Below are positions 17,634 to 33,408 of a stretch of DNA of 64,000 nucleotides, piece after piece. Both the position numbers and the translations under genes were made by a program. The stretch lies in NCBI RefSeq assembly GCF_947170395.1, contig NZ_CAMVTE010000012.1, positions 1-64,000 of the forward strand, read 5' to 3'. The notes under the pieces are model-generated. The model worked only from the letters and a program-made list of their open reading frames with translations, was not told where the DNA came from and ran no database searches. The number at the start of each line of letters is the position of its first letter. The first letter of the stretch is position 1. The DNA is from an uncultured Methanobrevibacter sp. (lineage in GTDB: Archaea; Methanobacteriota; Methanobacteria; Methanobacteriales; Methanobacteriaceae).

Positions 17634-18134
17634 TCAGTATCTGTCAAAATGAACTTTTGATTCGTCATATCTCAGTTTTGTCTCGCTTTCCTGTTCCGGC
17701 CAGCCTACGCATATTACGGAAAACGGAATGCAGAAATCCGGAATGTTAAGATATTCCTTAAGCTTCAATGTCCTATCTTCAATAGGATGGAAACCCAACC
17801 ATACCGCTCCAAGTCCTTCATGGGTTGCCTGAAGCAATATGTTTTCATTGCACGCTCCAAGGTCCTGCTCAATCATTCCAATCACCTTTGCCCGGTTCAG
17901 ATTTCCTATCGTTATTATCAAATGGGATGCGCCGGCCGCAGGTTTTGCAAATCTGTGCATTTCAGAAATTGCCTCTTTATCTTCCTTTTTATCAACGACA
18001 ATAAACTCCCATGGCTGTGCATTGCATGAGGAAGGTGCCTGCATGCCTGCCTTAAGCAGGTTTTCAATTAGCTTGTCATCTACCTTTTCGTCCTTGAATT
18101 TGCGTACGGAATGCCTTTTAAAAATGATACTCAT
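17634..18134 (-). CDS. Nitroreductase family protein
   Basis: This FMN-dependent oxidoreductase of 166 residues has the N-terminal (K)RHSVRKFK FMN-phosphate motif, the APSSCNAQPWEF segment and the GLGAVWLGFHP segment of the short nitroreductase family. The ATG at 18134 is chosen because GGTGG overlapping the end of the ClC gene serves as its ribosome binding site; a TTG twelve bases upstream is poorer. It begins 1 bp after the ClC stop, so the two genes are translationally linked. The natural substrate cannot be read from sequence. A second family member lies at 44643. Confidence 0.87.
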   Translation of the reverse strand: MSIIFKRHSVRKFKDEKVDDKLIENLLKAGMQAPSSCNAQPWEFIVVDKKEDKEAISEMHRFAKPAAGASHLIITIGNLNRAKVIGMIEQDLGACNENILLQATHEGLGAVWLGFHPIEDRTLKLKEYLNIPDFCIPFSVICVGWPEQESETKLRYDESKVHFDRY

Positions 18135-18135
18135 A

Positions 18136-19692
18136 TTAACCACCAAATAAATCCTCGATTTCCTGTCTTACAAACGGATAATCGTTTACATCCGTCAATA
18201 TATTAATCTGATCTGAATACTGAATGTTAAAGTCCTCTGTTGGGATGATATACTTGCCGTTTCTGATTACTGATACGACAATTGCATTTTTAGGAAACGG
18301 AATGTCCTTGATTTTAAAATTGATATAGTTGCAGTCAAGCGGAACAACATACTCGCTTAAAACATGTTTTGACGGTTTTTTGACATATTCCCTGTTTTTG
18401 TTTAAAAGCAATCGGTCATACAGTGACTCATATATCGGTTCATTTCCAAGAAGTGTCGGAATCACATAAGCAATCAGTGAGACTATAATCATTGCAACAA
18501 GGGATTCTGTTGAACCGCACATTTCAGCCAAAAGCACGACTCCTGTGATTGGTGATCTGACGGTTGCTGCGAAAAATCCGGCCATGGAAATGATTATGAA
18601 CTTGTAAATCAACTCATGCTCAAGACCCAGTGCAGGAACGAAAACGCTTCCAAATACCGCCCCAATATAGGCCCCCAATACCAGAATAGGCAAAAATATG
18701 CCTCCAGGAGCTCCGGATGAGAATGAAAACATTGAAAAGAGATACTTCAACACCAGCAATAACACCAATACTCCCAAAGATGGAATTGCCACATCCAACA
18801 TGTCCATCATGAAGTGTCCTCCGTCACTGATTTCAGGTATTGTCAGTGCCACAACACCGGATACCATAAATACCAATACGAATTTAAGCCATGAGGGAAT
18901 CTTAAGGCCTGAGACAAAATCGGATGATTTGATCATTCCGATATTGTAGATGTAGCCCAAAATGCCAATAAATATTCCCAAAACAATCAAAACCCAATAT
19001 GATTCAAGAGGAATGTTCAATACCGGGAAATTCAGAATGGTTGACTGGCCGAATATGGCCTTTGAGATAAAATCAGACACAATTGCTGATACCAAGGCAA
19101 TGAATACCAGAGTCTTGTCAAATCCATGATTTATTTCCTCGAAAACAAATATCACACCTGCCAAAGGTGCATTGAATGCTGCTGTAATACCAACTGCTGA
19201 ACCCACCAGAATCAGTCTTAGCTCATCTGTTTTGGAACCCTTGAAAAGTTTTGCAACTCCCTTTCCCGCCATACCTCCAATCTGAACGGACGGACCTTCA
19301 GGACCTAAAGATAAACCGCCCAATGCAGTGAGGACTCCGGCAACTATTTTAGAAAATAAAACTTTAAGCCAATTGGCTTCCATATGACCTTTTACCTCAG
19401 CATATACCTGAGGTATTCCGCTTCCAGCAGAATCAACTTCCCATTTAGTTAAAAAGTCTATTAAAAAACCCATAACGGCCAAAGCTATAAAAAACAATAT
19501 AATGTAAAGGAAATTTCCTTTAATAACAGTTAAATACCCTCTTAAAATATGCTCTGAGCCGTTAAGCAAAAATCTGTATAAACAAACCATCAATCCTGCA
19601 AATATACCCACCATTACTCCCTGAATAGTAAGTCGAAAGATATATTTTGGATTTTCAGCCACAGACTTCAATGTTTTTTCAAGAGTTTTCAT
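18136..19692 (-). CDS. ClC family chloride channel/antiporter with C-terminal regulatory domain
   Basis: This 518-residue membrane protein has the ClC selectivity signatures GSGIPQ (about residue 90) and GPEGPS (about 130), where the Glu is the gating residue. The EE pair in the FVFEEIN segment corresponds to the internal proton glutamate of ClC-ec1, favouring a chloride/proton exchanger. About ten to twelve membrane helices are followed from about residue 440 by a soluble domain resembling TrkA-C domains (NAIVVSVIRNG). No strong ribosome binding site precedes the ATG. It lies 12 bp from the upstream alkyltransferase-like gene, in a short operon with the nitroreductase. Confidence 0.9.
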   Translation of the reverse strand: MKTLEKTLKSVAENPKYIFRLTIQGVMVGIFAGLMVCLYRFLLNGSEHILRGYLTVIKGNFLYIILFFIALAVMGFLIDFLTKWEVDSAGSGIPQVYAEVKGHMEANWLKVLFSKIVAGVLTALGGLSLGPEGPSVQIGGMAGKGVAKLFKGSKTDELRLILVGSAVGITAAFNAPLAGVIFVFEEINHGFDKTLVFIALVSAIVSDFISKAIFGQSTILNFPVLNIPLESYWVLIVLGIFIGILGYIYNIGMIKSSDFVSGLKIPSWLKFVLVFMVSGVVALTIPEISDGGHFMMDMLDVAIPSLGVLVLLLVLKYLFSMFSFSSGAPGGIFLPILVLGAYIGAVFGSVFVPALGLEHELIYKFIIISMAGFFAATVRSPITGVVLLAEMCGSTESLVAMIIVSLIAYVIPTLLGNEPIYESLYDRLLLNKNREYVKKPSKHVLSEYVVPLDCNYINFKIKDIPFPKNAIVVSVIRNGKYIIPTEDFNIQYSDQINILTDVNDYPFVRQEIEDLFGG

Positions 19693-19704
19693 TATATTAA
19701 TGTT

Positions 19705-20175
19705 TTATTTTAAATCATATAAGAAATTTTCATAATTTTCAACGAAATATCGGATATTTTTTCTTCCCTTTGTCGTGAATGTATGGCCTTCAGATGCCAA
19801 TTTCTCTTTTTGATATTCGATGCCTCCAGGATATTTCGGATTCAGTTCACCGTCTTTTTTAAGAGTTCTCCAAAAAGGAATTCTATCACAATCTCTTTCA
19901 CAGCTGGCCTGAGCTGAAAGGGAAATGAATATTCCTGCCGTCATTGGACAGGTGAATTCAGCACCATATTTTTGAGCTAGAAATGACCTGATTTCACTGA
20001 CAGTAATTACATTGCCTTCCGGAATTTGAGCCATGATGCCATTATAGTCTAGCGGAGGAGCTATCAGCATCTGAGAGCCACCATATCTTTCAATTGATTT
20101 TTCATCAGCAATTTCGATAATTTTTGGCATGTCCTTTGAATCGTTTAACTTGTCATTGAATGATTTTCTTGCCAT
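19705..20175 (-). CDS. Alkyltransferase-like (MGMT-fold) protein lacking the active Cys
   Basis: This 156-residue protein has the DNA-binding winged-helix fold of O6-alkylguanine transferases: a GNVITVSEIRSFLA helix region, and IPFWRTLKKDGELNP at the place where true enzymes have PCHRV. The acceptor Cys is thus replaced (P-F-W-R), as in alkyltransferase-like proteins that bind alkylated guanine and flag it for nucleotide excision repair. The N-terminal 40 residues and a Cys-containing insertion (SCERDCDR) are unlike Ogt. The ribosome binding site AGAGGTGAT is excellent. A genuine Ogt is encoded at 55571. Function is inferred from family only. Confidence 0.7.
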   Translation of the reverse strand: MARKSFNDKLNDSKDMPKIIEIADEKSIERYGGSQMLIAPPLDYNGIMAQIPEGNVITVSEIRSFLAQKYGAEFTCPMTAGIFISLSAQASCERDCDRIPFWRTLKKDGELNPKYPGGIEYQKEKLASEGHTFTTKGRKNIRYFVENYENFLYDLK

Positions 20176-20276
20176 AATATCACCTCTAGCTTTCCTCTAA
20201 ATTTGAAATAACCAATATTTAATTGTGTTGACAAAATTATTACAAAAGAAAATTTATTGAATCTGCAAAATGATTT

Positions 20277-20594
20277 TTAATTGGAACTTCGCCATGTGTT
20301 TCCACACTTAGCGCAACGAATAAAATTAGTTGGAGCCTCATCGGCTGATCTTGTCTGTACTGTCCACCAGTAACCTTTAGTTCCACCACATTTATAGCAG
20401 GTTATTCTGGTTGTAGGCAAGGCAACATTATTTCTGTCGGTGACGATAACTTTTGCCTCGGGATTTGTTTCACCTTCAAAAGAGTACTGTTCCTCAATAT
20501 CCTCATCGGTTAATGACTTTTCATAACCGCATCTACATTTAATCTTGCCTTTTTTAGGCATTAACATCTTACCACAATCAGGACAGAATTCCAT
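20277..20594 (-). CDS. tfs: Transcription factor S (TFIIS-like RNA polymerase cleavage factor)
   Basis: This 105-residue protein has two zinc ribbons: an N-terminal CPDCG and CRCG ribbon that docks on RNA polymerase, and a C-terminal ribbon (CYKCGG and CAKCGNTWR). The latter carries the RSADEAPT loop whose Asp-Glu pair stimulates transcript cleavage by stalled polymerase. I chose the ATG at 20594 (MEFCPDCG), as in other archaeal TFS proteins, with GGTG about 9 nt upstream; an ATG at 20609 is in frame. It lies alone on the minus strand. Confidence 0.92.
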   Translation of the reverse strand: MEFCPDCGKMLMPKKGKIKCRCGYEKSLTDEDIEEQYSFEGETNPEAKVIVTDRNNVALPTTRITCYKCGGTKGYWWTVQTRSADEAPTNFIRCAKCGNTWRSSN

Positions 20595-20750
20595 ATTACT
20601 AAACACCATTTAAAATTCGTAAGTATTAATTTAATTAAACCAGTTTATAAAATTATCTACACTTTCTAAAGTATAGGAAAATTAATGTTTCTAAAAAATG
20701 AATATCTGAAAAAATAAAAAAAGAATAAATATCCTAAGATATTTACTCAC

Positions 20751-23498
20751 TTATTTTCTTCTTATGTACATGACACCAGCAACAGCACCAATTATGATTA
20801 AAACAAAAGCCATTCCATAGAGTAAATTATTATAATCAATTTCTTTTGACTCTTTTTTCTCAATTTCATATGCTTTTGAACTGTCACTTGACTCTCCAGC
20901 TTGGTTATCATCAGAAGATGAATCATCAGAAGAATCATCAGAAGATGAATCATCGGAAACCGGAGTAGCAGCTGAAGCTGCATATACAGAACCAACAGGA
21001 TTTGAAGATCTTCCTACGCTAGTACTAGTTCCTCTATTGTTAGATCCCCTATTAGTAGCTTTTGAAGATGAAGTGTCTTTAGAATTGGATTTTTGAGAAC
21101 TTCCATCATCAGTTTTTGTGTTTCCACCATTATCATTGGCATCTTTATCACTTGAAGATGAAACTGGAAGAGTATCATTTAATGCCATTAAGTATAAAAT
21201 TGCATCTCCTTCTTCAGTTTGATAAGCACCTGCCCTAATAGTATCTAACATTTCTTTATTGATTTCTTTAGTTGCAACAAATTCGACAAGAGGAGCTCTT
21301 ACTAAACCTGGTGAAGAATAATCTCCTTTGAATAATTTATTCCATTCTTCATAGTTTGCAGAACCACCAGTTGCAAATTTAGGGAATGCAACTTGAGCAA
21401 GGGTTGCAGTACCAGTTTGGGTTTGTTCATTCCAACGAATAATAATATTCACATAACTTGATTTATTTCCACCATCTGCAGTAGCTTCTGAATATCTTAA
21501 ATTGTAATAATTCTGCATACCCGGTGAAACACCAAGAAGTCTGGATAAGGTGTCATCTTTACAGTATGCTAATGTAGTAACAAGCATATATGTTTCATTT
21601 TCACCTAACGGCAATTCATCAAATACTTTATCAGCAAGCAATATTCCTGGAGAACCGCCAGGGCATACATGGTTGTGGAATAACCATGCAAGTAAAATAT
21701 CATATGCCGGGTTGTATTTAATTGAATTATCCTGAATATTATATTGTTGTGGACAAATTTCAAATTGACCAGAAGTTTGATTGTATAATAAACTGTATGA
21801 AGCAGTATTTGCATTGTTTAATGGATCTAACCAGAAGAAATCAAATACTAACTCTTTCCACAATGCAGTGTGCACTGGTAATAAAGTTGCTCTACTCAAT
21901 CTAGAACCTAAAATTTCAGCGATACCGTCATATACGCTTGTAGTATCAGTATTATCAATACGTACAAATCCAGCACTAGTTAGAACATAGAAATTAGACA
22001 TATCTTTTTCAATAGTTATATTAATTGAATTAAAGTAATTAGTAGCATTAATTGCTGCTTGTCTACCGATATTAATTAAATCCTGTTCTGTAAGAGATGA
22101 TGCTTTAAGTTCTTTATTAGAGTCTGATTCTATGTGAGTCAAATTTAAACTATAAATATAGTCCAAATCCAATCCTCTTGCATCCACATCGATTGAAGCA
22201 TCACTTGTTCCCATTATTTGAATTAATTGCTCTTCAGTTAAATATCCTAATTGATCTACAATAACTATTAATGATTCTGGATCTTTAGCTAATTTATCAA
22301 TTAACCATTTTTGATATTTTAAATCATTTGCAGAACTTGCATCAGGATTAAGTCCAGTTAAAGTTTTAAATTCTTTTTTAAGACCATCTTCATTATAAGA
22401 CATCAATATTAAAATACCAGTATTGGATGTTGTATTCCATCTTATAAATCCTGTCATTGTTGTATTAACCATAGTGTCAATACCAACATATGCTCTTTTA
22501 CCTGGAGTAATATCCATTGACCAAACAAATGAATCATCATCAGACCCTCCTGGAACTCCTACAACATAATATGCTGTATTTTCAAGTGGATTAACACCTG
22601 TTTCACCCCTAGGTGGGAAATATTTGAGTAAAGTATGAATCATTGCCTGACCACTTACTAACCCTGTACAAACATGACCATGATAAGCTGATTGAGTTAA
22701 AACATCAGCAGACAAACCTGCAGCCCAAGCATTAGCTAAACTAACATAAGAATAAGCGTCCTCAGAACCTAAAACTTTTTGTAATTCTTTCCATTTATTT
22801 GCATTCATATTTGCGCTGTCAACAGTTCCAACATATATCGGAGTCAATGTAGCATTTTTATAAAATGCCATAGTTAAATCATTTCCTCTTTTGACTACAA
22901 AAGCAAAATCAGTCGGATCAGTTCTTATAGCAGAAAGAGTTAAAATGTTTCCCTGACCATAGGTAATAAAACCATCAGCAGCATTTATAATTCCATCCAA
23001 AACGTCTTCAGTTGTTGTTCCATCAATTCTTGTTAATCCAGCAGTAGTAATTACTAAAACTTCATCAGCATTTTTAAAATCAAGTTTATTATTAGCATCA
23101 ACAGTTATATCATAACCGATTTTATAATTGTTAGTTGCTTTAAGATTAAAAATTAAATTACTTGAGTTAGCATTATCAAAAGTAATTACCTGTGAAGCTT
23201 GTTCATAACCATGTGCAGAAACAAAAATAGTATAATTTTTCTCACTGTCAACATCATCTAGAGCAATATTATATTTATTGTCATTTGAAGTTTTTTGATA
23301 AGAAACACTATTTCCATCTTGATTAACAATTATTTGAGGATTAATATTTTCATTATATTCGTAGTTAACTTCAATATTTACATCAGCGCCCTGTTTGGCA
23401 ACAGATGCAACATCCAAATCATCACTAGCTGAAACAGAAGTTATCATAACTAATGAAATGAATATTAACAAAACAATGAATAAATTTTTTTTATTCAT
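20751..23498 (-). CDS. Surface-tethered tandem FmdE-domain protein (copy 1)
   Basis: This 915-residue protein has a signal peptide (residues 1-25), a short extracellular beta-rich segment, then two FmdE-like domains. The first begins with VLVITTAGLTRIDG and carries the HGHVCTG motif at residues 273-279. The second begins with FYVLTSAGFVRID and carries FHNHVCPGG at about 607-615. A Ser/Asp-rich stalk and a C-terminal membrane helix followed by RRK anchor it outside the cell. FmdE domains bind metal through the His/Cys motif. Typical FmdE proteins are single-domain and cytosolic, so the name does not imply a subunit of formylmethanofuran dehydrogenase. A paralogue at 28529 closes the same gene block. 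A role in capturing a metal or metallo-cofactor is inferred. Confidence 0.75.
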   Translation of the reverse strand: MNKKNLFIVLLIFISLVMITSVSASDDLDVASVAKQGADVNIEVNYEYNENINPQIIVNQDGNSVSYQKTSNDNKYNIALDDVDSEKNYTIFVSAHGYEQASQVITFDNANSSNLIFNLKATNNYKIGYDITVDANNKLDFKNADEVLVITTAGLTRIDGTTTEDVLDGIINAADGFITYGQGNILTLSAIRTDPTDFAFVVKRGNDLTMAFYKNATLTPIYVGTVDSANMNANKWKELQKVLGSEDAYSYVSLANAWAAGLSADVLTQSAYHGHVCTGLVSGQAMIHTLLKYFPPRGETGVNPLENTAYYVVGVPGGSDDDSFVWSMDITPGKRAYVGIDTMVNTTMTGFIRWNTTSNTGILILMSYNEDGLKKEFKTLTGLNPDASSANDLKYQKWLIDKLAKDPESLIVIVDQLGYLTEEQLIQIMGTSDASIDVDARGLDLDYIYSLNLTHIESDSNKELKASSLTEQDLINIGRQAAINATNYFNSINITIEKDMSNFYVLTSAGFVRIDNTDTTSVYDGIAEILGSRLSRATLLPVHTALWKELVFDFFWLDPLNNANTASYSLLYNQTSGQFEICPQQYNIQDNSIKYNPAYDILLAWLFHNHVCPGGSPGILLADKVFDELPLGENETYMLVTTLAYCKDDTLSRLLGVSPGMQNYYNLRYSEATADGGNKSSYVNIIIRWNEQTQTGTATLAQVAFPKFATGGSANYEEWNKLFKGDYSSPGLVRAPLVEFVATKEINKEMLDTIRAGAYQTEEGDAILYLMALNDTLPVSSSSDKDANDNGGNTKTDDGSSQKSNSKDTSSSKATNRGSNNRGTSTSVGRSSNPVGSVYAASAATPVSDDSSSDDSSDDSSSDDNQAGESSDSSKAYEIEKKESKEIDYNNLLYGMAFVLIIIGAVAGVMYIRRK

Positions 23499-23582
23499 TT
23501 TTTTTAGTACCCCCCATAAAATTTTAAAAAAATTTTATATAATCATGTATAGACTTATAATCTACACAGATTGTCATTTAAA

Positions 23583-23610
23583 GTAATACATATATAAATA
23601 TAATTATTAC
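23583..23610. promoter_or_regulatory. Inverted repeat GTAATA-N16-TATTAC upstream of FmdE copy 1
   Basis: Perfect 6-bp half sites at 23583-23588 and 23605-23610 are separated by 16 bp, 85-112 bp before the start codon at 23498. A similar repeat with a 17-bp gap lies before the other FmdE gene. A further GTATTAC lies at 23636-23642. Such spacing fits a dimeric repressor; the regulator is unknown and AT-richness makes chance possible. Confidence 0.4.
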
Positions 23611-23713
23611 TAAATTATCATAAATTTGATAAAAAGTATTACGATGTTAAACATTAAATAAAATAACCAACTAACAAATTGAAAAACCAGAAAAAAATAA
23701 CCTCAAAAAGAAT

Positions 23714-23728
23714 CATTCATAATGAATG
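23714..23728. promoter_or_regulatory. Palindrome CATTCAT-A-ATGAATG
   Basis: A perfect 7-bp inverted repeat with a 1-bp centre lies about 220 bp upstream of the FmdE copy 1 gene, in the 573-bp gap after the membrane protein pair. It could be an operator or part of a transcript end; nothing in the sequence decides. Confidence 0.3.
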
Positions 23729-23807
23729 TGGCGCCTGTAGATTAAGAAATTAAATATTAACATATATTATAGCGAAAAGAGCTAAATAGAAAATATTTGA
23801 TGTAAAG

Positions 23808-23975
23808 ATGAAAAATAATAATCATTCACAATTAAAAGAAAATAAAAAAGAAAAAAATTTCAAAATACCTCAAACTACCCCAATTAATCTTTTTAAAAAA
23901 ACAGAAAACATATTAAAAAACAAAACAAAGTTGGCAAGCTGGCTAAAATCCAAATGCAAAATCAACAGTTCTTAA
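23808..23975 (+). CDS. Possible 55-residue basic small protein (weak)
   Basis: A plus-strand frame of 55 codons lies within the 573-bp gap at 23499-24071. The peptide is very rich in Lys and Asn, with a possible amphipathic C-terminal half (NLFKKTENILKNKTKLASW). The ribosome binding site is weak (GATGTAAAG) and the codons follow the AT-rich background, so a chance frame is quite possible. It is noted because the gap otherwise holds only regulatory-looking repeats. Confidence 0.2.
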   Translation: MKNNNHSQLKENKKEKNFKIPQTTPINLFKKTENILKNKTKLASWLKSKCKINSS

Positions 23976-24071
23976 GACTTTTTTGATACTTCATTAGAAA
24001 AAGAAACTGTTAATGTGTAAAACAGGTTGTTAATAACTGTCAATTTAATCAATCGACATTTTAAAAATAAT

Positions 24072-24461
24072 CTACATATCAAAGTAGTTTAAAACCAAAA
24101 CAATTATGCCGCAAATTGCCAGAATCATTTGGGTATCCAGAACGATGCCCGAACTTAATGTCAAAGGTCCCGGAAATACACCATCACCGAATATCATCGG
24201 CATGACATAGACAAACACCGCCGCAAATATTACAATACAGACGATGGCCAGGACAAATCTGGAATAATTGTCGGGAATTATTCCGTCTTCGATTATGCGG
24301 CTTACTCCAAAACATGCAAAGATATACATTCCAACCAGTGCTGCAATAAACGGAAGATAAGCATTTTGCAGAGTGCCTATGAAAAACCAGACCATAACAG
24401 TTACGATAACTGCTCCAATAAGGTTCATGAACATTGATTTGATTAATTCGCCAACTTTCAT
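24072..24461 (-). CDS. Small membrane protein, paralogue of the upstream gene
   Basis: This 129-residue protein has four hydrophobic segments. A central motif (YxFxxxGVxxIIEDGIIPDNYSRFVLAI) and a later PMIFGDGVFP turn are recognisably shared with the preceding gene, showing an old tandem duplication. Its ATG abuts the stop of that gene and uses GTGAT as ribosome binding site, so the two are translated together and probably form a heteromeric membrane complex. I do not recognise a named family. Position next to the DUF2149-ExbB-DUF2162 genes suggests a part in the same process. Confidence 0.7.
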   Translation of the reverse strand: MKVGELIKSMFMNLIGAVIVTVMVWFFIGTLQNAYLPFIAALVGMYIFACFGVSRIIEDGIIPDNYSRFVLAIVCIVIFAAVFVYVMPMIFGDGVFPGPLTLSSGIVLDTQMILAICGIIVLVLNYFDM

Positions 24462-24899
24462 TTAATCACGGTTAAAATGTTTGTATCTTCTGTAAATAAG
24501 GAAATTGAATATCAGCATCACTACGGCGAAAAGCGCCAAATAAAACTCCTTGCTTAATGCAAGATTGAAAAATGTGCCGCCATAGTTCAGGAATAAATAT
24601 TCTGTTGGCGGAAATGCGTTCGGACCGAACAGTAACGGTATGATAAAAACAAATGCAATATCGAATGCCAAAATGTAAAGTATTGCAACAATGAATCTTA
24701 TGTAATTATTTGGAATTTTCTGTGCTTCCACAAGATTATTTACGCCATAAACGACTAAAAAGTACAATCCAAATAAATTACCCAAATACATTCCTCCCTT
24801 AAGGTGAAATGCGTCCAGGATATCTGAAGTAACTATAGCAATTATTAATGAGGAGACAAAATTCAATATCAAAACTCTAAGAATATTACCATGCTTCAT
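24462..24899 (-). CDS. Small membrane protein, first of a tandem pair
   Basis: This 145-residue protein has four hydrophobic segments and a basic C-terminus (YRRYKHFNRD). It shares the pattern GVxNLVEAxKIPxNYIRFIVAI and PLLFGPNAFPP with the next gene but has a larger loop after that motif. The ATG at 24899 follows a clear CCGGTGAT ribosome binding site. A gap of about 107 bp separates it from the DUF2149 gene, so it may share the same transcript. Function unknown. Confidence 0.7.
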   Translation of the reverse strand: MKHGNILRVLILNFVSSLIIAIVTSDILDAFHLKGGMYLGNLFGLYFLVVYGVNNLVEAQKIPNNYIRFIVAILYILAFDIAFVFIIPLLFGPNAFPPTEYLFLNYGGTFFNLALSKEFYLALFAVVMLIFNFLIYRRYKHFNRD

Positions 24900-25006
24900 G
24901 AAATCACCGGAAAATGTTTGAAGTAAAATCAGTTATTATGTATGTATGTTAAAACATATAAGTGTTAAAAAAAAAATAGGTCAAAAAAAAGTTAAGTGTG
25001 AAAGGC

Positions 25007-25330
25007 TTAGCCTTCCACCATGATCAGCTTACCCGTAGCAGGGTCTTTATAAACCTTACCCATCTCGGTATAACCCTGACCGGAACTGTTTGAAGTGTCA
25101 GGGGTTTCATTCAACTGCTGGCCTTGATCAACTTCAGTCATTTTCTGTTGCTGCATCTGGTCTTGAATGTTATTGTCAGGGTCAATCATTGCCTGCATAT
25201 TCCAGCTTATGATAACGAAAACCAGAAAGCCCACAGCAATAACAAGCATTGCATCCACCAAGTTGGATGTACCTGCCATTGGGTCTTCTTCGACACGTTT
25301 AGCCCTTCGTCTTCCACCTTTTCTTACCAT
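25007..25330 (-). CDS. DUF2149 family protein (HmuV/ExbD-like partner)
   Basis: This 107-residue protein has a basic cytoplasmic N-terminus (VRKGGRRRAKR), the GTSNLVDAMLVIAVGF membrane helix near residues 19-44 and a soluble outer tail of 60 residues ending in DPATGKLIMVEG. One N-terminal helix with an Asp in it, next to an ExbB-type gene, is the architecture of ExbD/TolR proton-motive-force partners. I chose the ATG at 25330, which has AGTGAT upstream and begins 7 bp after the ExbB stop; the 25369 start would add residues inside the previous gene. In Bacteroidetes heme loci the DUF2149 gene is, from memory, hmuV. Confidence 0.75.
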   Translation of the reverse strand: MVRKGGRRRAKRVEEDPMAGTSNLVDAMLVIAVGFLVFVIISWNMQAMIDPDNNIQDQMQQQKMTEVDQGQQLNETPDTSNSSGQGYTEMGKVYKDPATGKLIMVEG

Positions 25331-25337
25331 AAAATCA

Positions 25338-25982
25338 CTATTTACCCATTTTATCAAGAACAGCGTCAATTAAAGCATCCAAATCAGATAGATATCTGTC
25401 ATACCATCCTGACCTGACTTTACTGATTACATAACATAATGCACCTGAACCGATACCTACAATAGTAGTGTTGAACGCAACTGTCAGAGAACTTGCAAGA
25501 GTGTTAATGTCACCTGCACCCAATGCGGCAAGTCCCGGACCCATTGGAATTAAAGTACCCATTAAACCTAACGTAGGTCCGATTTTAGTAATAATATCAG
25601 TTTTCTGTAATGTAGATTCGGTTTTTTCTTCTTCAAATTCAAATAATTTACGAGCCAAAGCTTCTCTTGATGAATTACCTAAACTTTCAGAAGATGCAAT
25701 TTCATCTAAAACCTTCTTTTGAGATTTTGGGATTTTTGCTGAAGAAATTACACTTTTCAATTTGTCCTGTGATTCAGCAGCATTGATTTCATAAATCAAA
25801 TCCCTTATTGTTCCAACGGAAACTTTACGTCTGGAAGTATATTCAGCAATAATTCCTCCCAATGCAATAATACTTATTATAACAATTACGAGCAAAATTA
25901 TAAGAACCGGAATTGTTAAGCTTTGTGAAATTACATCAAGAGATCCTGTTAAAAATTCTCCACCCGGAATATTTAAAGCCAT
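25338..25982 (-). CDS. MotA/TolQ/ExbB-type proton channel
   Basis: This 214-residue protein has a first membrane helix at about residues 22-45, a cytoplasmic segment of about 80 residues, and two C-terminal helices with the family signature: TKIGPTLGLMGTLIPMGPGL followed by LASSLTVAFNTTIVGIGSGAL. It would use the proton gradient to drive movement of a partner, here probably the DUF2149 protein. The ATG at 25982 is preceded by AGGTGA; an upstream GTG at 25991 is in frame. It lies 13 bp after DUF2162 and 7 bp before DUF2149, in the order DUF2162-ExbB-DUF2149. Confidence 0.85.
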   Translation of the reverse strand: MALNIPGGEFLTGSLDVISQSLTIPVLIILLVIVIISIIALGGIIAEYTSRRKVSVGTIRDLIYEINAAESQDKLKSVISSAKIPKSQKKVLDEIASSESLGNSSREALARKLFEFEEEKTESTLQKTDIITKIGPTLGLMGTLIPMGPGLAALGAGDINTLASSLTVAFNTTIVGIGSGALCYVISKVRSGWYDRYLSDLDALIDAVLDKMGK

Positions 25983-25995
25983 AATTTTCACCTAG

Positions 25996-26703
25996 TTATT
26001 TTAAAATACTACCTCTTCTATTTAAAACGGCACCACCCACTAATAAAATAGCGAATGCCACAATAATCATTAATAAATCTTGAGGAGAACCAATAGTAAT
26101 TGGAGTTAAAGTTTTTGTTAAAACACCTGCAATGTTTGGAATTACAATAGCTGAAAGCAGGAAGTATGCTCCAAGCAACAGCATGAAATTTCCCAAAACA
26201 ACAGGATACGGTTTTTTGATAAACCTGATGATTGTATTTGATGCAAGATAAGTCACAATCATGACTCCAACAAGTGCGGCTGCCGCATACCAGCTTAAAT
26301 TAAGTGAGCTGACGCCTATTGTTGGTGCAACAATCAATACACTGGCAATGATTGACCCGAAACAGCAAGGACAAGGAGCAATAATAGCCAGGGAAGTTGC
26401 AGTAGATGTATTCTTATCATGTATTTTCCATTCCCTTATAGTAAACAAACCTGCAACAATCATGATTGAAGCCATTATAATGTAAAATATAGTATTGTAA
26501 CTGTAGATAGCCTGAATTAGCTGTTCAGCAAATAATGACGCAATAGCTGATATTACAATTACTCCACCACCATATGCAATACAAATTGCTGCAAATAATT
26601 TTTTAGACAAATTGGCCAAACCTGAAGCCAGCCCTATCTTTATACCAAAAACAAGAACGGATGCAAAGATACCCACTTGCCATAAAACACTCATCATATC
26701 CAT
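25996..26703 (-). CDS. DUF2162 family putative transporter (HmuT-like)
   Basis: This 235-residue integral membrane protein has about six helices. A CPCC cluster at residues 111-114, between helices 3 and 4, is a striking feature of this family and could bind a metal. The ribosome binding site is AAGGAG and the start is firm. It is the first gene of the tight DUF2162-ExbB-DUF2149 set and is preceded by a 148-bp gap that can hold its own promoter, with two TATTAC elements there (26737 to 26756). Family members are called putative transporters; no substrate has been established that I know of. Confidence 0.8.
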   Translation of the reverse strand: MDMMSVLWQVGIFASVLVFGIKIGLASGLANLSKKLFAAICIAYGGGVIVISAIASLFAEQLIQAIYSYNTIFYIIMASIMIVAGLFTIREWKIHDKNTSTATSLAIIAPCPCCFGSIIASVLIVAPTIGVSSLNLSWYAAAALVGVMIVTYLASNTIIRFIKKPYPVVLGNFMLLLGAYFLLSAIVIPNIAGVLTKTLTPITIGSPQDLLMIIVAFAILLVGGAVLNRRGSILK

Positions 26704-26851
26704 ATTTAATTCTCCTTAATCAATTTGAATTTAATTTATTACAAATAACTATTACTTTAATAAAGTATTTAAATTTTATAAATTTGCGATGTGTATTCAA
26801 ACAAACATCAATATTATATTATAAAATTTGATTAATAAAATATTTTCTTTT

Positions 26852-27331
26852 TCATCGTTTTGATTTAACCAAAACCCCAATGCCTATTCCAATTATCAAT
26901 CCAATTATCAGTCCTGAAACCAGAGGAGTTATGAAATTTGAATTTTGCTGGGATTCAACATTAACATTACCTATTTTTATCAGTCCGTCCTTAACAGAAT
27001 CGTTGTTTACATCATCAACAATTATCAGTCTGTCAGATACTTCAGGATGATTTTTCAAGAATTCATTTGCTGTATCCTGATATGAAGTAACAAGAATTCT
27101 CTTGTTTGAATTGTTCAGCATATGCTCAAGCTGGTGAGCAACTTCTCCATCGGATGTGAACTTATAGACGCTGATGTTAATGTTGTTTGCATCTGCAATC
27201 TCCTTAACCAATACGCCGTTGTCGTCATTTGCAATGACCATAGTATCGGCAGTAACATCAACTCCATGAGCATATAATCCCTGAACACCGGCCAGAAGTA
27301 TAATCAAAATAATTAAAAATTTTTTCACCAT
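26852..27331 (-). CDS. Secreted membrane-tethered small protein
   Basis: This 159-residue protein has a signal peptide ending near LYA, so that the mature chain would begin with His-Gly or Ala-His-Gly. About 105 residues of soluble domain with alternating strands and helices (VVKEIADANNINISVYKF, RILVTSYQD, RLIIVDDV) follow. It ends in a glycine-rich C-terminal membrane helix with a KSKR tail. The protein faces the outside and is anchored at its C-terminus. It starts 8 bp after the CbiM stop. The His near the mature N-terminus and the position after CbiM suggest a metal-binding accessory; no family name is recognised. Confidence 0.6.
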   Translation of the reverse strand: MVKKFLIILIILLAGVQGLYAHGVDVTADTMVIANDDNGVLVKEIADANNINISVYKFTSDGEVAHQLEHMLNNSNKRILVTSYQDTANEFLKNHPEVSDRLIIVDDVNNDSVKDGLIKIGNVNVESQQNSNFITPLVSGLIIGLIIGIGIGVLVKSKR

Positions 27332-27339
27332 AAAAACAC

Positions 27340-27963
27340 CTATATTTTATTTATATTCATAATTTCAGGCTTTATTGTCCTGATTGCATAAATTATAATC
27401 GTATTTGCAAATCCTTCAATGACCCCAACAAACAAATAAAATGGAACCAGAGTGGCTAAAAGACTATCCAGATTCATGGCGCCTGACACCATTAATATCA
27501 AAATCTGGGCGAATGTGGCTAATACAATGCCAGCTACTGTTGAGATAAATATTGCCAGTTTATCATTAACGTTGTCCAATAGAGTGTAAAATCCATAAGT
27601 TACAAAGGCAACGACAACACCTATGACGAGAAAATTGGCTCCAAAACATACTATTCCACCCATATCCAGAGCCAATGCCTGCATAAGCAATCCGAAAAAT
27701 GAAACAATAGATCCGTTAAATGGCCCTAGAATGATTGCCACCAATGGAATCAAAAAGAAATGTATCGGAACTCCTAGAGGAGACGGAATAGAAAGCGAGG
27801 TTACAACCACAAAAAACACTGAAAACAGTGCAATTGAAACCATAGTCCTTTCTTTTTGGGGGTTTTTTGAAAATTTATGTAAAAAGACAGCTATAACAAT
27901 TAATGTAATGCACCAATATACTGCAGACTGTTCGATTGGAATTATTCCATCCGGCAAATGCAT
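27340..27963 (-). CDS. cbiM: CbiM/NikM-type cobalt or nickel transport membrane protein
   Basis: This 207-residue protein starts with MHLPDG, the N-terminus that in CbiM/NikM S-components folds back into the membrane and uses His2 to bind cobalt or nickel. About six helices follow, with the conserved GVPIHFFLIPLVAIILGPFNG region near residues 65-85. In ECF transporters this subunit works with CbiQ and CbiO, but no ECF ATPase gene is in the window. Its ATG overlaps the upstream stop codon by one base (TAATG), so the two are translationally coupled. Nickel versus cobalt cannot be decided; methanogens need both, for F430 and B12. Confidence 0.85.
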   Translation of the reverse strand: MHLPDGIIPIEQSAVYWCITLIVIAVFLHKFSKNPQKERTMVSIALFSVFFVVVTSLSIPSPLGVPIHFFLIPLVAIILGPFNGSIVSFFGLLMQALALDMGGIVCFGANFLVIGVVVAFVTYGFYTLLDNVNDKLAIFISTVAGIVLATFAQILILMVSGAMNLDSLLATLVPFYLFVGVIEGFANTIIIYAIRTIKPEIMNINKI

Positions 27964-28475
27964 TAAATCACCTTAATTTTATGCAATAATACAATTACAG
28001 CAAAACCGAATAAGAATGCGCATATTAAAATAGCAACATTAGTGACTGTGAAAACAGATGAATCATCATTATCATCTGCTGCTGATTCATTTACATTGCT
28101 TTCATTTGTAGCATTATCACTTACATTACCTTCGCCATTATCCAAAACAACTTCACTGGCACCATTGTCGTTGGAACTCTGGGATTTGGAAGACTCATAA
28201 CTGCTGGCTGAACTTCCCCCACCATTATTTGAACTGCCTGACGAACTGCTTTGTGAAGACTGGGAACTGGAATCAGCGCTTGAACTAGATTGAGAGTGAA
28301 CTTGAGAACTTCCAGATGAACTGTCCTGTGATGGAGACAGAGAAGAAGAACTGGCTGAAGGAGATACAACCTCTTCGGGATGATATTCTCCATGTCCAGG
28401 ATGTGCCACCACACAAGAAAAAGTCATTCCAAAAACAATCAAAATCAAAATATAAAAAACAAGTTTATGATTAAT
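27963..28475 (-). CDS. Ser-rich secreted protein with His-rich mature N-terminus; possible ATT start
   Basis: The signal peptide (HKLVFYILILIVFGMTFSCVVA) is followed at once by HPGHGEYHPEE, three His that could bind metal at the cell surface. A Ser-rich low-complexity stalk of about 75 residues, an acidic stretch and a C-terminal membrane helix follow. There is no ATG: the only in-frame conventional codon is a TTG at 28490 without a ribosome binding site. The strong AAGGTGG element sits just before an ATT at 28475, which I take as the likely start (170 residues). It precedes and couples to CbiM. CbiN- or NikN-like accessory function is a guess from position. Confidence 0.6.
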   Translation of the reverse strand: MNHKLVFYILILIVFGMTFSCVVAHPGHGEYHPEEVVSPSASSSSLSPSQDSSSGSSQVHSQSSSSADSSSQSSQSSSSGSSNNGGGSSASSYESSKSQSSNDNGASEVVLDNGEGNVSDNATNESNVNESAADDNDDSSVFTVTNVAILICAFLFGFAVIVLLHKIKVI

Positions 28476-28528
28476 TTTACCACCTTCCAAAAAAATAAAA
28501 AAAATATTTCACAAAAGTGAAATATTAA

Positions 28529-31147
28529 TTATTCTCGTTTTATATAACCGTATCCAAATATTGCACCAACTATTAATACTGCAGCAATTGCCAAAATAAT
28601 GGTATTTGAGCTAGAATCTTTTGCAGCAGGTTTTTCGGAAATTTCATATGATTTACTGTCTGATTGTGATGCACCATCATCGGAATCATCTTCAGAAGCG
28701 TCATCAGCTTCACTAGCTACACTCGCAGCAGCTGCATTAACGGTAGTTCCTACAGAATAACTGCCTCTGCTTATGGATTTGGAAACACCATTTCCAGAAT
28801 CAGGTCTTTGAACATCAGTAGTTCCATTAACCAAAGCCTGATTGCCTTTACCTTTTTCACCAGTATTTTTATTGTTATTGGTGTTGTCCTGAGGTTTAGG
28901 AGTTACTGGAAGCTTATCATCCAAACTCATAATGTAGCTGATTGAATTTCCCTGTTCAGTATCGGTAGCGCCGGAAACTATTGTCTGAAGCATGTCTTCA
29001 TTAATTTCTTTTCTGGCTGTTACTGAAATAGAAGGAGGTGCAATGAGATTTTCAGAAGAATAATCATGTTTATACAATCTGATGTATTCTTCGTACATGT
29101 CTGAGCCTTTTTTAAATGCAACACCTGAAGACCAATTTTCTAAATTAATTATTATTAAATCACCGGTTTTTGTTGCACTGTTCCATTTTATTGCAATTCC
29201 AACATTGGTACTGTTAGTACGTGAATCATCATATCTCAAATTGTAATAGTTTTCCATACCCGGAGAAACTCCTAAAAGTCTTGAGATTACATCATCTTTA
29301 CAGTTGTCATTTGTAGTGATGTAAATGAATGATTCGTTTTCATTTGTTATCGGAAGTTGTTCATAAACAAAATCAGCGATTAAATAACCCGGAGCACTAC
29401 CTCCACAAACGTGATTGTGGAATAACCATCCGACCAATACATCATATGGAGGGTCGTATTTTATTGCACTTTGAATAACATAATTCGCATTTGCGGTAGT
29501 GTTGGCGGTTTCAATTAAGCTGCCTGTGGTAACATCATACTTTAAACTGTATGATAAGGTATCCTTATTGTTGGTACTGTTTACCCAGAAGAAATCAAAT
29601 ACCAGATCTTTCCACAAAGCTGTATGTACAGGCAATAAGGTTTTTTTACTTAATCTTGATCCGAATACATCTGTGATTCCATCCAAAACCATTTCTGTAG
29701 AGGTTCCGTTTATTCTGACATAACTTGCAGATGTCAATACATACATTGTAGGATAATCCTTAGGCACATCAATGCCCTGTGATTTGAAGTAATTCAATGC
29801 CATTTTACTGGCATCAGAACCAATTTGTTTTAGTTGTTCAGAAGTTAGTTTTGTTTGTGGTTTTACAGATTGTTCTTCACGGTTTGCTTTTTTAAGGCTT
29901 AAGTTGAGAATATAATCCATATCCAAACCATGAGCACTCTTGGTTACAGATCCTTTGCCAGGTTCTTCACCCATCAAATAATATATATCATCCTGAGTGA
30001 GACCATCAAATTCATATAAAACATCAACAAGAGAAGTTGGATTATCAACTAATGTTTGAATTAACCAATTTTGATATTTCAAATCGTTTGTAGCACTTGC
30101 ATCAGGATTTAAACCTGTTTTTGCTTTAAATGTTTGTTTGATTTTTGTTTCATTATAACTCATTACAATGATTAATCCTGTCTTAGTTTGGCTGTTCCAT
30201 CTGATAAATCCTGTCATGGACTTATCAACCATGGTATCCACACCAATGTACGCCCTTTTACCTGGAGTGATATCCATTGTCCAAGTAAATGCATCATCAT
30301 CAGAGTCCCCCGGAATTCCTAAAACATAATATGCTGTGTTTTCAAGAGGCAATCCGGATTCCCCACGTGGAGGATAATATTTAAGCAATGTTTGTATCAT
30401 GGCCTGACCGCTTATGAGTCCTGTACATACATGTCCGTGGTAAGTCGCCTGGGTTAAAATATCCTTTGAGATGCCGTTAGCCCATGAATTTGCAATACTG
30501 ACATAGGAGTATGCATCTTCATTGCCGAGCAACTGTTGGATTTTTTTCCATTCCTTATCGGATATTTCAGGACCTGCGGTTCCATAATACAATGGAGTTA
30601 ATGCTCCATTTTTATAGAATGCCATTGTAAGAGTATTTGATTTTTTGATAATGAAAGCTATGTTAGTCGGATCGGTTCTTATAGCAGATAATGTTAAAAG
30701 ATTACCTTTTCCATAAGTAACATGACCGTTTGAAGCATCAATTATACCATTTAAAACATTTTCAGTAGTTATATTATTAATCCTTGTCAAACCGGCTGTA
30801 GTAATTACTAAAATATCATCTGCAGAATCAAAATCCAGCAGCTTATCTGCAGCCGAAGTGACATTATAACCAAGTTTATAGTTACTGTCATCAGCCAAAT
30901 TGGAATCGATGAATTTGGAATAACTGTTATCATTTCCTTTAGAGTTAACGCTAACTCCATTATCATTAGATAATAATTCATCATCAACATTTATTTGAGC
31001 ATTTTCCTGATTTACTGACAGTTGAGACTCCACATCAGCAGATAAATCTCCGTCAGCCAAATCAGTTGCATCACTGGCTGAAACAGCACTTATAAAACTC
31101 ATTGTTAAAATTAAAAATGTAATTATAACAATTCCATGTTTTTTCAT
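28529..31147 (-). CDS. Surface-tethered tandem FmdE-domain protein (copy 2)
   Basis: This 872-residue paralogue of the protein at 20751 has a signal peptide (residues 1-25) and two FmdE-like domains. The first has YHGHVCTG at about residues 236-243 and the second has FHNHVCGG. A polar stalk rich in Asn, Lys, Ser and Asp and a C-terminal membrane helix ending in IKRE follow. The two proteins match over most of both domains, including the TTAGLTRI and LTLSAIRTDPT segments, but differ in stalk and N-terminal spacer. The ribosome binding site AGGTGA is clear. As first gene of the block it probably leads the His-rich protein, CbiM and the following gene. Confidence 0.75.
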   Translation of the reverse strand: MKKHGIVIITFLILTMSFISAVSASDATDLADGDLSADVESQLSVNQENAQINVDDELLSNDNGVSVNSKGNDNSYSKFIDSNLADDSNYKLGYNVTSAADKLLDFDSADDILVITTAGLTRINNITTENVLNGIIDASNGHVTYGKGNLLTLSAIRTDPTNIAFIIKKSNTLTMAFYKNGALTPLYYGTAGPEISDKEWKKIQQLLGNEDAYSYVSIANSWANGISKDILTQATYHGHVCTGLISGQAMIQTLLKYYPPRGESGLPLENTAYYVLGIPGDSDDDAFTWTMDITPGKRAYIGVDTMVDKSMTGFIRWNSQTKTGLIIVMSYNETKIKQTFKAKTGLNPDASATNDLKYQNWLIQTLVDNPTSLVDVLYEFDGLTQDDIYYLMGEEPGKGSVTKSAHGLDMDYILNLSLKKANREEQSVKPQTKLTSEQLKQIGSDASKMALNYFKSQGIDVPKDYPTMYVLTSASYVRINGTSTEMVLDGITDVFGSRLSKKTLLPVHTALWKDLVFDFFWVNSTNNKDTLSYSLKYDVTTGSLIETANTTANANYVIQSAIKYDPPYDVLVGWLFHNHVCGGSAPGYLIADFVYEQLPITNENESFIYITTNDNCKDDVISRLLGVSPGMENYYNLRYDDSRTNSTNVGIAIKWNSATKTGDLIIINLENWSSGVAFKKGSDMYEEYIRLYKHDYSSENLIAPPSISVTARKEINEDMLQTIVSGATDTEQGNSISYIMSLDDKLPVTPKPQDNTNNNKNTGEKGKGNQALVNGTTDVQRPDSGNGVSKSISRGSYSVGTTVNAAAASVASEADDASEDDSDDGASQSDSKSYEISEKPAAKDSSSNTIILAIAAVLIVGAIFGYGYIKRE

Positions 31148-31666
31148 AAATACTCACCTAAATTTTTGGTATAATAAACTCTTATTATACCGAAACAATG
31201 TATTTAGTAATACTTATTTAAATATTAGTTATTACGATTCATAATACAATTTATATATTAATTATTACGAACTGAATAATTTTTAATTATATTAAAAAAA
31301 TAAACAATCTGTTCAATGAAAACTGAAAAATATTATTTTAAAAAAAAATTACCAGCATCATTATTTCCTAAAAAGAAGGCCCCAAATTTATTTAAATTCA
31401 AAATAAGAAAAGTATTACTAAATTTTAAAGTAATAATTAGATAACAATGTTAATGATATTATATTTGCAAATAAATAAAAAATCAAAGCCTAAAACGCAC
31501 CATCATTATTAATATTAAATGAAAAATGAATATAACATTGTTAATAATATCTCTTATATAAATAAACCCCACATGATTAAAATTGAGATGCTGATTTTAA
31601 CACTAGAAAATTTTATAGTTACCTAGAATAATATATTATAATGTTAATAATTTAATGAGGCAAAAC
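31148..31666. other. Divergent promoter region between FmdE copy 2 and the ligase gene
   Basis: This 519-bp AT-rich gap holds the promoters of two divergent genes. I see no coding frame. It contains repeated TATTAC/GTAATA elements (31207-31235, 31263, 31413 and 31430) and several copies of AATGTTAAT (for example near 31446, 31536 and 31639) that may be operators for either gene. Confidence 0.4.
31207..31235. promoter_or_regulatory. Inverted repeat GTAATA-N17-TATTAC upstream of FmdE copy 2
   Basis: Half sites at 31207-31212 and 31230-31235 lie 60-88 bp before the FmdE copy 2 start. The same arrangement with a 16-bp gap precedes FmdE copy 1. Shared regulation by a DNA-binding dimer is inferred; the regulator is not known. 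Confidence 0.4.
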
Positions 31667-32968
31667 ATGTTTTGGAACGAAGAAATTGAAACAATGCCAA
31701 GGCAAGACCTTGAGGAATTACAGTTAAAGAAACTTCAAAAAACTGTAAAGAGAGCTTTTGACAAGATTCCATATTACAATAAAAAATACACTGAAGCTGA
31801 AGTTTTTCCGGAAGATATTGAAACCCTAAAGGACATTGAAAAACTTCCGTTCATTACAAAAGATGATTTAAGGGAAAGCTATCCCTTCGGACTCTTTGCA
31901 GTGGACATCAAAGAAATAAAAGAACTGCATTCATCATCCGGAACAACCGGAAAACCAGTTGTATCAGGATATACCAAAAAAGACATTGACACCTGGGCTG
32001 AAACCACAGCACGTGGTCTGACCATGATGGGAATCGGTGAAGAGGATATCCTTCAAAATACACACGGTTACGGAATGTTTACAGGAGGATTCGGGGTTCA
32101 CTACGGATCCCATAAAGTCGGCGCAGCAATCATTCCGATTTCAACAGGCCAGACCAGAAGGCAAATCGAAATCATGAATGACTTTGGCACAACAGGACTT
32201 ATCTTTACCCCTTCATACGGAATACATCTTGGAGAAGTGGCCCTGGAAGAGGGAATTGACCCTAAAGATTTGGGCATTAAGGCCATCGGTTTTGGTGCTG
32301 AAGGATGGACCGAAGAGATAAGACAAAGAGTTGAAGAGCTCTTCGGATGCAAAGCATACAACATTTACGGACTGACAGAACTGATGGGTCCTGGTGTTGG
32401 AGTTGAATGTGAAGTGCAAAACGGACTCCACATTGCAGAAGACATCTACTACCCTGAAATCATTGACCCTAAAACAGGCAAGGTCATAGGCGGCGACAAG
32501 CCTGGAGAACTGGTCCTGACAAATATTGAAAGGGAAGGAATGCCAGTCATCAGATTCAGAACAAAGGATTTGACCAAACTTACCTATGAAAAATGCGAAT
32601 GCGGAAGGACACATGCAAGAATGAGCAGAATTACAGGAAGATCCGATGACATGATTAAAGTCAAAGGAGTAGCTATATTCCCATCACAGATTGAAAAAGC
32701 TTTGCTTAAAGCAGGTGATGTAGAGCCTCATTATCTAATTATAGTTACAAGACCTGGAACCCTGGATGAAATCGAAGTCAAAGTGGAAGCGTCCAAAGAC
32801 ATTTTCTTCGATGGCGTGAAGGAAATGATGGCAGTTCAAACAAAAATCGGAAAATACATTGAAAATGAAACCGGTATCAGAGTAAAAGTGACACTCGTTG
32901 AACCGAAAACCCTTCCAAGATTTGAAGGAAAAGCAAAAAGAGTAATAGATGAAAGGAATTTGCATTAG
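31667..32968 (+). CDS. paaK: Phenylacetate-CoA ligase family (PaaK-like) adenylate-forming enzyme
   Basis: This protein of about 433 residues activates an aryl-acetate or related acid with ATP and CoA. It has the LHSSSGTTGKPVVSG phosphate-binding loop (about residue 90), FGAEGWTEEIR, the YGLTELMGPG motif, and a C-terminal TGRSDDMIKVKGVAIFPSQIE hinge. I chose the ATG at 31667 (MFWNEEIETMPR), with GAGG 7 nt upstream; the ATG at 31655 overlaps that element. The following ACT-domain gene begins 8 bp later, a pairing common in methanogens, where these enzymes accompany salvage of aromatic amino acids from aryl acids. Confidence 0.88.
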   Translation: MFWNEEIETMPRQDLEELQLKKLQKTVKRAFDKIPYYNKKYTEAEVFPEDIETLKDIEKLPFITKDDLRESYPFGLFAVDIKEIKELHSSSGTTGKPVVSGYTKKDIDTWAETTARGLTMMGIGEEDILQNTHGYGMFTGGFGVHYGSHKVGAAIIPISTGQTRRQIEIMNDFGTTGLIFTPSYGIHLGEVALEEGIDPKDLGIKAIGFGAEGWTEEIRQRVEELFGCKAYNIYGLTELMGPGVGVECEVQNGLHIAEDIYYPEIIDPKTGKVIGGDKPGELVLTNIEREGMPVIRFRTKDLTKLTYEKCECGRTHARMSRITGRSDDMIKVKGVAIFPSQIEKALLKAGDVEPHYLIIVTRPGTLDEIEVKVEASKDIFFDGVKEMMAVQTKIGKYIENETGIRVKVTLVEPKTLPRFEGKAKRVIDERNLH

Positions 32969-32976
32969 GTGAAAAT

Positions 32977-33408
32977 ATGAAAATCAAACAGTTATCAATA
33001 TTTCTGCAAAATAAAATGGGGAGCTTATCAAAACCATTGGAGATACTCAGCGATGCAGACATCAACATAAGGGCAATGTGCATGGCAGATACTTCCGAAT
33101 TCGGTATTTTAAGACTTGTTGTTGATGACCCTGAAAAGGGAAAGGAAGTTTTGGAAGAAAATAACTTTTTAGTTAAAATTACCGAAATCATCGGTGTTGA
33201 AATGAACGATACACCGGGCGGTCTTACAGCAGTTTTAAAATCCATTAAAGACAACAACATTGATTTGGAATACCTTTATGCATTTACTCACGACAAGGTC
33301 GGAAAAGCTATATTACTTTTACATGCCGATGATATTGATGAGTTAATTTCCTCATTAAAAAATGACAACTTTACCATAGTATCTGCTGAAGAAGTTTATA
33401 ATCTATAA
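32977..33408 (+). CDS. Tandem ACT-domain protein
   Basis: This 143-residue protein is made of two ACT domains (residues about 3-68 and 72-140), with the first opening with the LSIFLQNKMGSLSKPLEIL pattern of amino-acid-sensing ACT folds. It has no catalytic domain. Such proteins are regularly encoded after PaaK-type ligases and probably sense an aromatic amino acid. The ribosome binding site AGGTGA sits at the end of the ligase gene, 8 bp away, so the genes form an operon. A run of Ts at 33412-33430 probably ends the transcript. Confidence 0.85.
   Translation: MKIKQLSIFLQNKMGSLSKPLEILSDADINIRAMCMADTSEFGILRLVVDDPEKGKEVLEENNFLVKITEIIGVEMNDTPGGLTAVLKSIKDNNIDLEYLYAFTHDKVGKAILLLHADDIDELISSLKNDNFTIVSAEEVYNL

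Follow-up and report, generated by a model that had tools for sequence, protein, structure and literature searches.

Ten consecutive genes on one strand of the window, a 64,000-nucleotide stretch of a contig from an uncultured Methanobrevibacter sp. (NZ_CAMVTE010000012.1, positions 1 to 64,000), probably encode a nickel acquisition system that is under NikR-type control, is induced by nickel limitation and uses an HmuTUV-like ExbB motor. We assign this reading a probability of about 0.6, with nickel binding, transport and the ligand being inferred. It is built on observations made directly in the genomes, namely the gene content, its recurrence, its place relative to CobN loci, the operator-like sites and a C-terminal tag shared by otherwise unrelated surface proteins.

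Table 1. Features of the cluster and of its upstream regions, in window coordinates.
Feature	Position	Strand	Evidence
FmdE_A promoter, candidate NikR-type operator, GTAATAACTAATATTTAAATAAGTATTAC, over TATA-like box	31207..31235	-	Motif scan
FmdE_A, tandem-FmdE protein of 872 aa, secreted, tethered at the C-terminus	28529..31147	-	Pfam, alignment, structure model
Short tethered protein, 175 aa, Ser-rich stalk, C-terminal TM	27963..28490	-	Alignment, hydropathy
Solitary CbiM	27340..27963	-	Pfam 1.1e-39, alignment
SP159, 159 aa, tethered alpha/beta domain	26852..27331	-	Alignment; AlphaFold pLDDT 84
DUF2162 predicted transporter, APCPCCFG motif	25996..26703	-	Pfam 7.7e-67
ExbB/MotA/TolQ-type proton channel subunit	25338..25991	-	Pfam MotA_ExbB, E 1.4e-10
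DUF2149, putative ExbD-like single-TM partner	25007..25330	-	Pfam; start at conserved Met14
Mem1, membrane protein of the window clade	24462..24899	-	Neighbourhood comparison, hydropathy
Mem2, adjoins Mem1	24072..24461	-	Neighbourhood comparison, hydropathy
FmdE_B promoter, candidate NikR-type operator, GTAATAATTATATTTATATATGTATTAC	23583..23610	-	Motif scan
FmdE_B, second tandem-FmdE protein, 915 aa, secreted and tethered	20751..23498	-	Pfam, tag profile

The genes run from 31147 to 20751 in the order FmdE_A, 175-aa protein, CbiM, SP159, DUF2162, ExbB, DUF2149, Mem1, Mem2 and FmdE_B. ORF and Pfam analysis bore out, down to the coordinates, the gene inventory of an earlier note on this DNA, which had placed tandem FmdE proteins at both ends of an array on one strand. 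Hydropathy profiles revealed an N-terminal signal and a C-terminal TM helix in FmdE_A, in FmdE_B and in the 175-aa and 159-aa proteins, the latter two matching the short tethered proteins of that note; in FmdE_A both elements were also plain in the predicted structure model. The nearest named genomes are goat-gut Methanobrevibacter MAGs with 82-83% identity, in which the same cluster is present. Mem1 and Mem2 (24072-24899) occur only in the window clade and in a small number of close relatives; among the latter, L103 has them together with the triplet of DUF2162, ExbB and DUF2149 genes but lacks FmdE.

FmdE_A and FmdE_B each contain two PF02663 domains above the Pfam cut-off, and these account for all four FmdE matches of the genome. 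Domain 2 of FmdE_A has a complete HxHxC...C site (H577-x-H579-x-C581 ... C616), and domain 1 carries H237-x-H239-x-C241 with Ser at the fourth ligand position. FmdE crystal structures have a metal site of His-His-Cys-Cys (His-x-His-x-Cys...Cys), and metal transporters adjoin most PF02663 genes (PMC2954224). The best PDB fold match of FmdE_A was 2glz, an FmdE structure (probability 1.00, E 2e-3); a PDB sequence search with the tandem-FmdE profile yielded nothing useful. The likeness to the structurally known family members (B8FYU2_DESHY, Q9HJ63_THEAC, Q2LQ23_SYNAS) lies in the core with its HxHxC motif, present here in two copies, the second of which keeps the fourth ligand Cys as in PF02663. 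Unlike those proteins, the cluster proteins are exported, tandem, approximately 900 aa long and tethered, no zinc-finger domain was seen in them, and their genes are not in an fmd operon.

Within the triplet, the DUF2149 gene was taken to begin inside a longer ORF (25007-25369) because the conserved start corresponds to Met14. An Asp at the start of the TM helix (D39 of the 120-aa ORF, within NLVDAMLV) was invariant in 53 homologues; its context recalls ExbD, and no Pfam ExbD match was obtained. Bacterial hmu operons have the order permease - ExbB - DUF2149, with HmuT termed a hypothetical protein or a putative permease (PMC10434189, PMC13227078). The hmuTUV-like arrangement proposed earlier was confirmed by Pfam as far as gene order is concerned, without a sequence comparison of HmuT and DUF2162. 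This order is shared with the HmuYRSTUV heme-iron system of Bacteroidota, which comprises the dechelatase HmuS, HmuT, the ExbB-like HmuU and the DUF2149 protein HmuV, and archaeal loci related to the cluster keep a CobN/HmuS homologue ahead of the triplet, as HmuYRSTUV does. Unlike HmuYRSTUV, the cluster operates without an outer membrane, its genes include no TonB-dependent receptor and no HmuY as judged from ORFs and Pfam, and it has tandem FmdE proteins and CbiM in place of CobN as well as a nickel-type operator. A function of the DUF2162 CPCC motif as a general metal path was ruled out, since the motif is missing from DUF2162 of the divergent FmdE-type clades.

The cluster CbiM likewise resembles the CbiMNQO/NikMNQO ECF transporters with NikK/NikL in keeping Met1-His2 and His68. 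These residues, known from NikM as metal ligands, were invariant in the alignment, which included the two canonical CbiM proteins of the genome. Unlike those transporters, the cluster has no N, Q or O gene: ORF and Pfam analysis detected no CbiN, CbiQ or CbiO beside its CbiM. The absence of CbiO and CbiQ described before therefore holds within the cluster and not for the genome, which has two complete CbiMNQO sets elsewhere (C28 and C3). Both short tethered proteins are predicted to start with His after signal cleavage, and they may act in a NikK-, NikL- or CbiN-like manner. The predicted mature N-terminus of the 175-aa protein is HPGHGEYHPEE, and HPGHG or HPGHS follows the signal peptide in every listed homologue, a list that was itself selected by the HPGHG motif. 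SP159 is predicted to begin with HGVDVT after cleavage and has an invariant H66-x-L-E-H70; its fold matches were generic Rossmann-like only. On these grounds, and in the absence of a profile match, SP159 was rejected as a stand-alone CobN head domain.

Upstream of both FmdE genes an inverted repeat, AGTAATA-N16/17-TATTACT, lies over the TATA box. The site of FmdE_A is located 60 bp upstream of the gene start, with a second copy (13/14) nearby at 31241-31268, and that of FmdE_B 85 bp upstream. The two 14/14 matches of the window to GTAATA-N16/17-TATTAC fall exactly at these promoters, compared to 0.0 in shuffled versions of the window. Only four exact copies occur in the 2.25 Mb genome; of the other two, one precedes an ABC operon of NikABCDE type with five genes and one lies in an unrelated intergenic region. 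Across 21 genomes, an exact site was found at most 700 bp upstream of 20/33 tandem-FmdE genes, with 0.04 expected at random placement. As the motif was derived from the same upstream regions that were later counted and the 21 genomes are related, this count measures placement specificity and not independent discovery. Whole-genome site totals did not exceed those of a reversed-pattern control in most genomes, so that only placement is informative, and motif abundance alone was dropped as evidence. The delta-proteobacterial NikR signal in reversed orientation is GTAACAC-N13/14-GTGTTAC (PMC545781), which the half-site of the cluster matches with T for C, and the genome encodes one NikR. NikR control is inferred from the motif, and other regulators could bind these sites.

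Similar sites were observed at further loci. The ABC operon (NikABCDE/Opp-type; G000 C23, L239:2813-8004), with its site 157 bp upstream of the binding protein and the same site in at least four relatives, is a candidate further nickel importer. The DUF3344 surface gene that belongs to CobN-type triplets likewise has operator-like sites in front of it. In another genus, three exact sites surround mcrB, hypA and short elpA/elpB-like genes (L242, G031:C3:50800-58200), a placement that would fit a common nickel regulon for MCR, HypA and Elp. The promoters of the genome's own nikMNQO and cbiMNQO operons contained no site above 12/14. In several Methanobrevibacter, a conserved copy is placed between, or just upstream of, a gene for a TadA/FlaI-type secretion ATPase and its neighbour (L227-L234, L243), without an evident link to nickel. 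The nikR gene itself (L245:5719-7447, G000:C41) is followed by a methyltransferase-like gene and by a gene that, by eye, resembles those of hydrogenase maturation proteases.

Published data on a homologous locus strongly suggest nickel control of the cluster. By locus-tag count, the DUF2162 gene of Methanothermobacter marburgensis, as which genome G019 was taken by inference from gene order, is MTBMA_c10530, located between amt2 (c10450) and CobN (c10550-10570), the published tags used being these and amt1 c10420, ABC c10830 and vor c10900 (PMC3087415). 'Transporter MTBMA_c10530' rises under nickel limitation, and the authors of that work suggest a role in nickel transport (PMC12350162); hmd and Elp also rise under nickel limitation in this organism. 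Sites of 12-13/14 precede its FmdE, CobN and DUF2162 genes and occur in the elpX-hmd intergenic region, elp and hmd having been named by homology and from sequence. Scanning 160 kb of this genome gave 10 such sites compared to 3.6 in shuffles, nine of them inside two 20-kb pieces that hold the FmdE/CobN/DUF2162 and elpX-hmd operons. The locus MTBMA_c10510-c10590 (tandem FmdE, CobN, DUF2162, ExbB and DUF2149; tags by count), which is without a name in the literature found, shares the homologous triplet and tandem FmdE with the window cluster, but it has CobN and lacks CbiM, HPGHG and SP proteins.

The grouping of these genes is not accidental. Genes for tandem FmdE were present in 53 of 150 Methanobacteriales genomes, and within 9 kb of them we found an HPGHG gene at 38/64 loci, CbiM and an SP159 homologue at 32/64 each, and DUF2162 at 26/64; the 64 loci include four that entered the set as CobN loci. 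Other genera (L206-L210) also show the complete order FmdE-HPGHG-CbiM-SP-DUF2162-ExbB-DUF2149, and variants exist with CobN (L080, L116) or without the triplet (L113, L121), while some tandem-FmdE genes are solitary or accompanied only by an HPGHG gene and some triplets are solitary. The pairing of FmdE-CbiM with the triplet is scattered over the DUF2162 tree, where the FmdE+CbiM label requires 6 changes, at least five of them forced by well-supported branches; the placement of the divergent DUF2162 clades is unsure because their branches are long. A GC-rich Actinomycetota contig (L114, CAKZMC010000150.1) carries in line a DUF2162-like gene, ExbB, DUF2149 and a tandem FmdE of 1062 aa with the same C-terminal KxYEV tag, implying that the system is not solely archaeal. 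The idea of a conserved neighbourhood of tandem FmdE genes and the triplet thus survived, with co-occurrence in several genera and on this one Actinomycetota contig. Beside some FmdE cassettes (L113, L115, L117, L122-L124) lies a gene for a ModE/TOBE-type regulator, identified by Pfam/NCBIfam in L113 and by eye in the rest.

The history of the site links the cluster to CobN. In the window, the triplet is flanked on one side by a TFIIS-like zinc-ribbon gene and on the other by a gene that its sequence marks as phenylacetate-CoA-ligase-like; in many close relatives the triplet occupies this site unaccompanied by FmdE or CobN. In basal relatives of the clade of the window triplet, an exported CobN goes with the triplet: it directly precedes DUF2162 in L072 and L102 and lies a few kb upstream in L069 and L071. 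A middle group retains only the triplet, and in the goat-gut group the upstream position is taken by the FmdE cassette. Since the closest outgroups possess CobN and the goat-gut group the FmdE cassette, the cassette stands at the former place of CobN, and the CobN tree agrees with this DUF2162-based history. This supports, in position, the suggestion of the earlier note that FmdE proteins fill the place of CobN/HmuS. Its statement that no CobN-like HmuS is seen applies to the cluster, from which CobN is absent, and fails for the genome, which has two: one on C25 with a second DUF2162-ExbB-DUF2149 triplet and one alone on C8. That the orphan C8 CobN is the relocated partner of the window triplet is unsupported, as it belongs to a distant lineage and has 23% identity to the C25 CobN. 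The second triplet (L084, G000:C25:2500-22400) is preceded by the exported CobN and followed by the gene for a large surface protein; in relatives, a NikR-type site precedes the surface gene of this type, and L084 is a candidate nickel-tetrapyrrole system.

Otherwise unrelated, FmdE and CobN both end in a KxYE[VI]xK box and a subsequent TM helix, the box being KSYEISEK in FmdE_A and KAYEIEKK in FmdE_B. In the window genome, a profile of this tag gave E-values below 1e-8 for both FmdE proteins and both CobN proteins and none better than 3e-4 for anything else, three of the four matched proteins having been part of the profile itself. Some other large surface proteins of Methanothermobacter also bear the tag, and an 897-aa beta-helix surface protein adjoining a CobN-less triplet (L078:10712-13405) has a KVYEITQK box before its C-terminal TM, making it a possible third kind of motor partner. 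The role of the tag is inferred: surface anchoring alone is possible, and so is docking to the motor. Because the FmdE-HPGHG-CbiM-SP cassette is found where relatives keep exported CobN, an HmuS-like dechelatase, one motor appears to have alternative surface partners. Taken further, this would amount to a TonB-box-like principle in single-membrane cells, in which one ExbB-DUF2149-DUF2162 motor powers unrelated surface proteins (FmdE, CobN, possibly others) in turn via KxYE[VI]xK, enabling them to remove nickel from chelates or nickel tetrapyrroles (F430, for example) and to deliver it to the membrane. We offer this generalization only tentatively and would not rely on it.

For the window cluster, we propose that a nickel-loaded NikR-type repressor would occupy the GTAATA-N16/17-TATTAC sites that lie over the TATA boxes of both FmdE genes. 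At low nickel, the tandem FmdE proteins would be made, exported and tethered by the C-terminal KxYE[VI] tag and TM helix, and their HxHxC...C sites may then capture nickel or a nickel chelate outside the membrane. A proton-driven ExbB-DUF2149 motor together with DUF2162 would act on the tethered protein and make it release the metal, the N-terminal-His tethered proteins (HPGHG..., HGVDVT...) would pass Ni2+ to CbiM, and CbiM would admit it alone or with CbiQO/NikQO modules encoded elsewhere. These steps are inferences. Whether the ligand is free Ni2+, a chelate or a tetrapyrrole is inferred, as are nickel binding and transport, there being no binding, transport or knockout data.

The principal alternative is uptake of a metallo-tetrapyrrole (F430 or its breakdown products, a corrinoid or heme) with the metal coming along, FmdE either holding the ring or stripping the metal like CobN/HmuS and the motor with DUF2162 moving ring or metal. 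At other loci this triplet goes with exported CobN/HmuS-like proteins, and in Bacteroidota it is linked through HmuYRSTUV to heme use; the KxYEV-TM tag is common to FmdE and CobN, and the cleft of the FmdE dimer is big enough for a sizeable ligand (PMC2954224). However, CbiM, the HPGHG protein and the NikR-type sites point to a free metal ion entering the cell, and the FmdE-CbiM super-operons L206-L210 have no CobN. We regard this alternative as unlikely, though it deserves to be kept in view. Metallo-tetrapyrroles, which the earlier note had named beside metals as substrates, are neither demonstrated nor excluded; uptake of metals is supported, with nickel favoured by the NikR-type sites and the rise of MTBMA_c10530. 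The gut setting it had envisaged needs widening: as thermophilic Methanothermobacter carries a form of the cluster, the system is not gut-specific.

A system for cobalt, or for nickel and cobalt broadly, could be argued from the family name of CbiM, from the closeness of CbiM and NikM and from the need of methanogens for both metals. We give it very little weight, because the operator-like sites are common to nickel-linked genes (nik-type ABC, hypA, mcr, hmd, elp) and no cobalamin riboswitch or other Rfam match was present at 18000-33000; on the latter ground, cobalamin riboswitch control of the cluster was rejected. It seems equally improbable that FmdE serves the nickel regulon at the cell surface as a sensor, buffer or adhesin and that the adjoining triplet has a different purpose. 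The solitary FmdE genes, those with only an HPGHG gene and the solitary triplets would fit this, but joint occurrence with the triplet and CbiM is repeated on separate branches in one operon-like order, and FmdE bears the same tag as CobN, the triplet's other partner. A nickel acquisition system remains our preferred reading.

Methanogens need much nickel for F430 and NiFe hydrogenases, and its acquisition under scarcity is poorly known. For the unnamed 'Transporter' that a 2025 Nature study found to be up under nickel limitation, the cluster offers a probable identity (DUF2162, by tag count), a motor, surface partners and a candidate nickel-responsive operator. A 2025 EMBO J study could not assign a function to archaeal HmuS/CobN homologues, and the cluster joins both questions. 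The long-unexplained FmdE-family proteins thereby gain a testable role in nickel capture.
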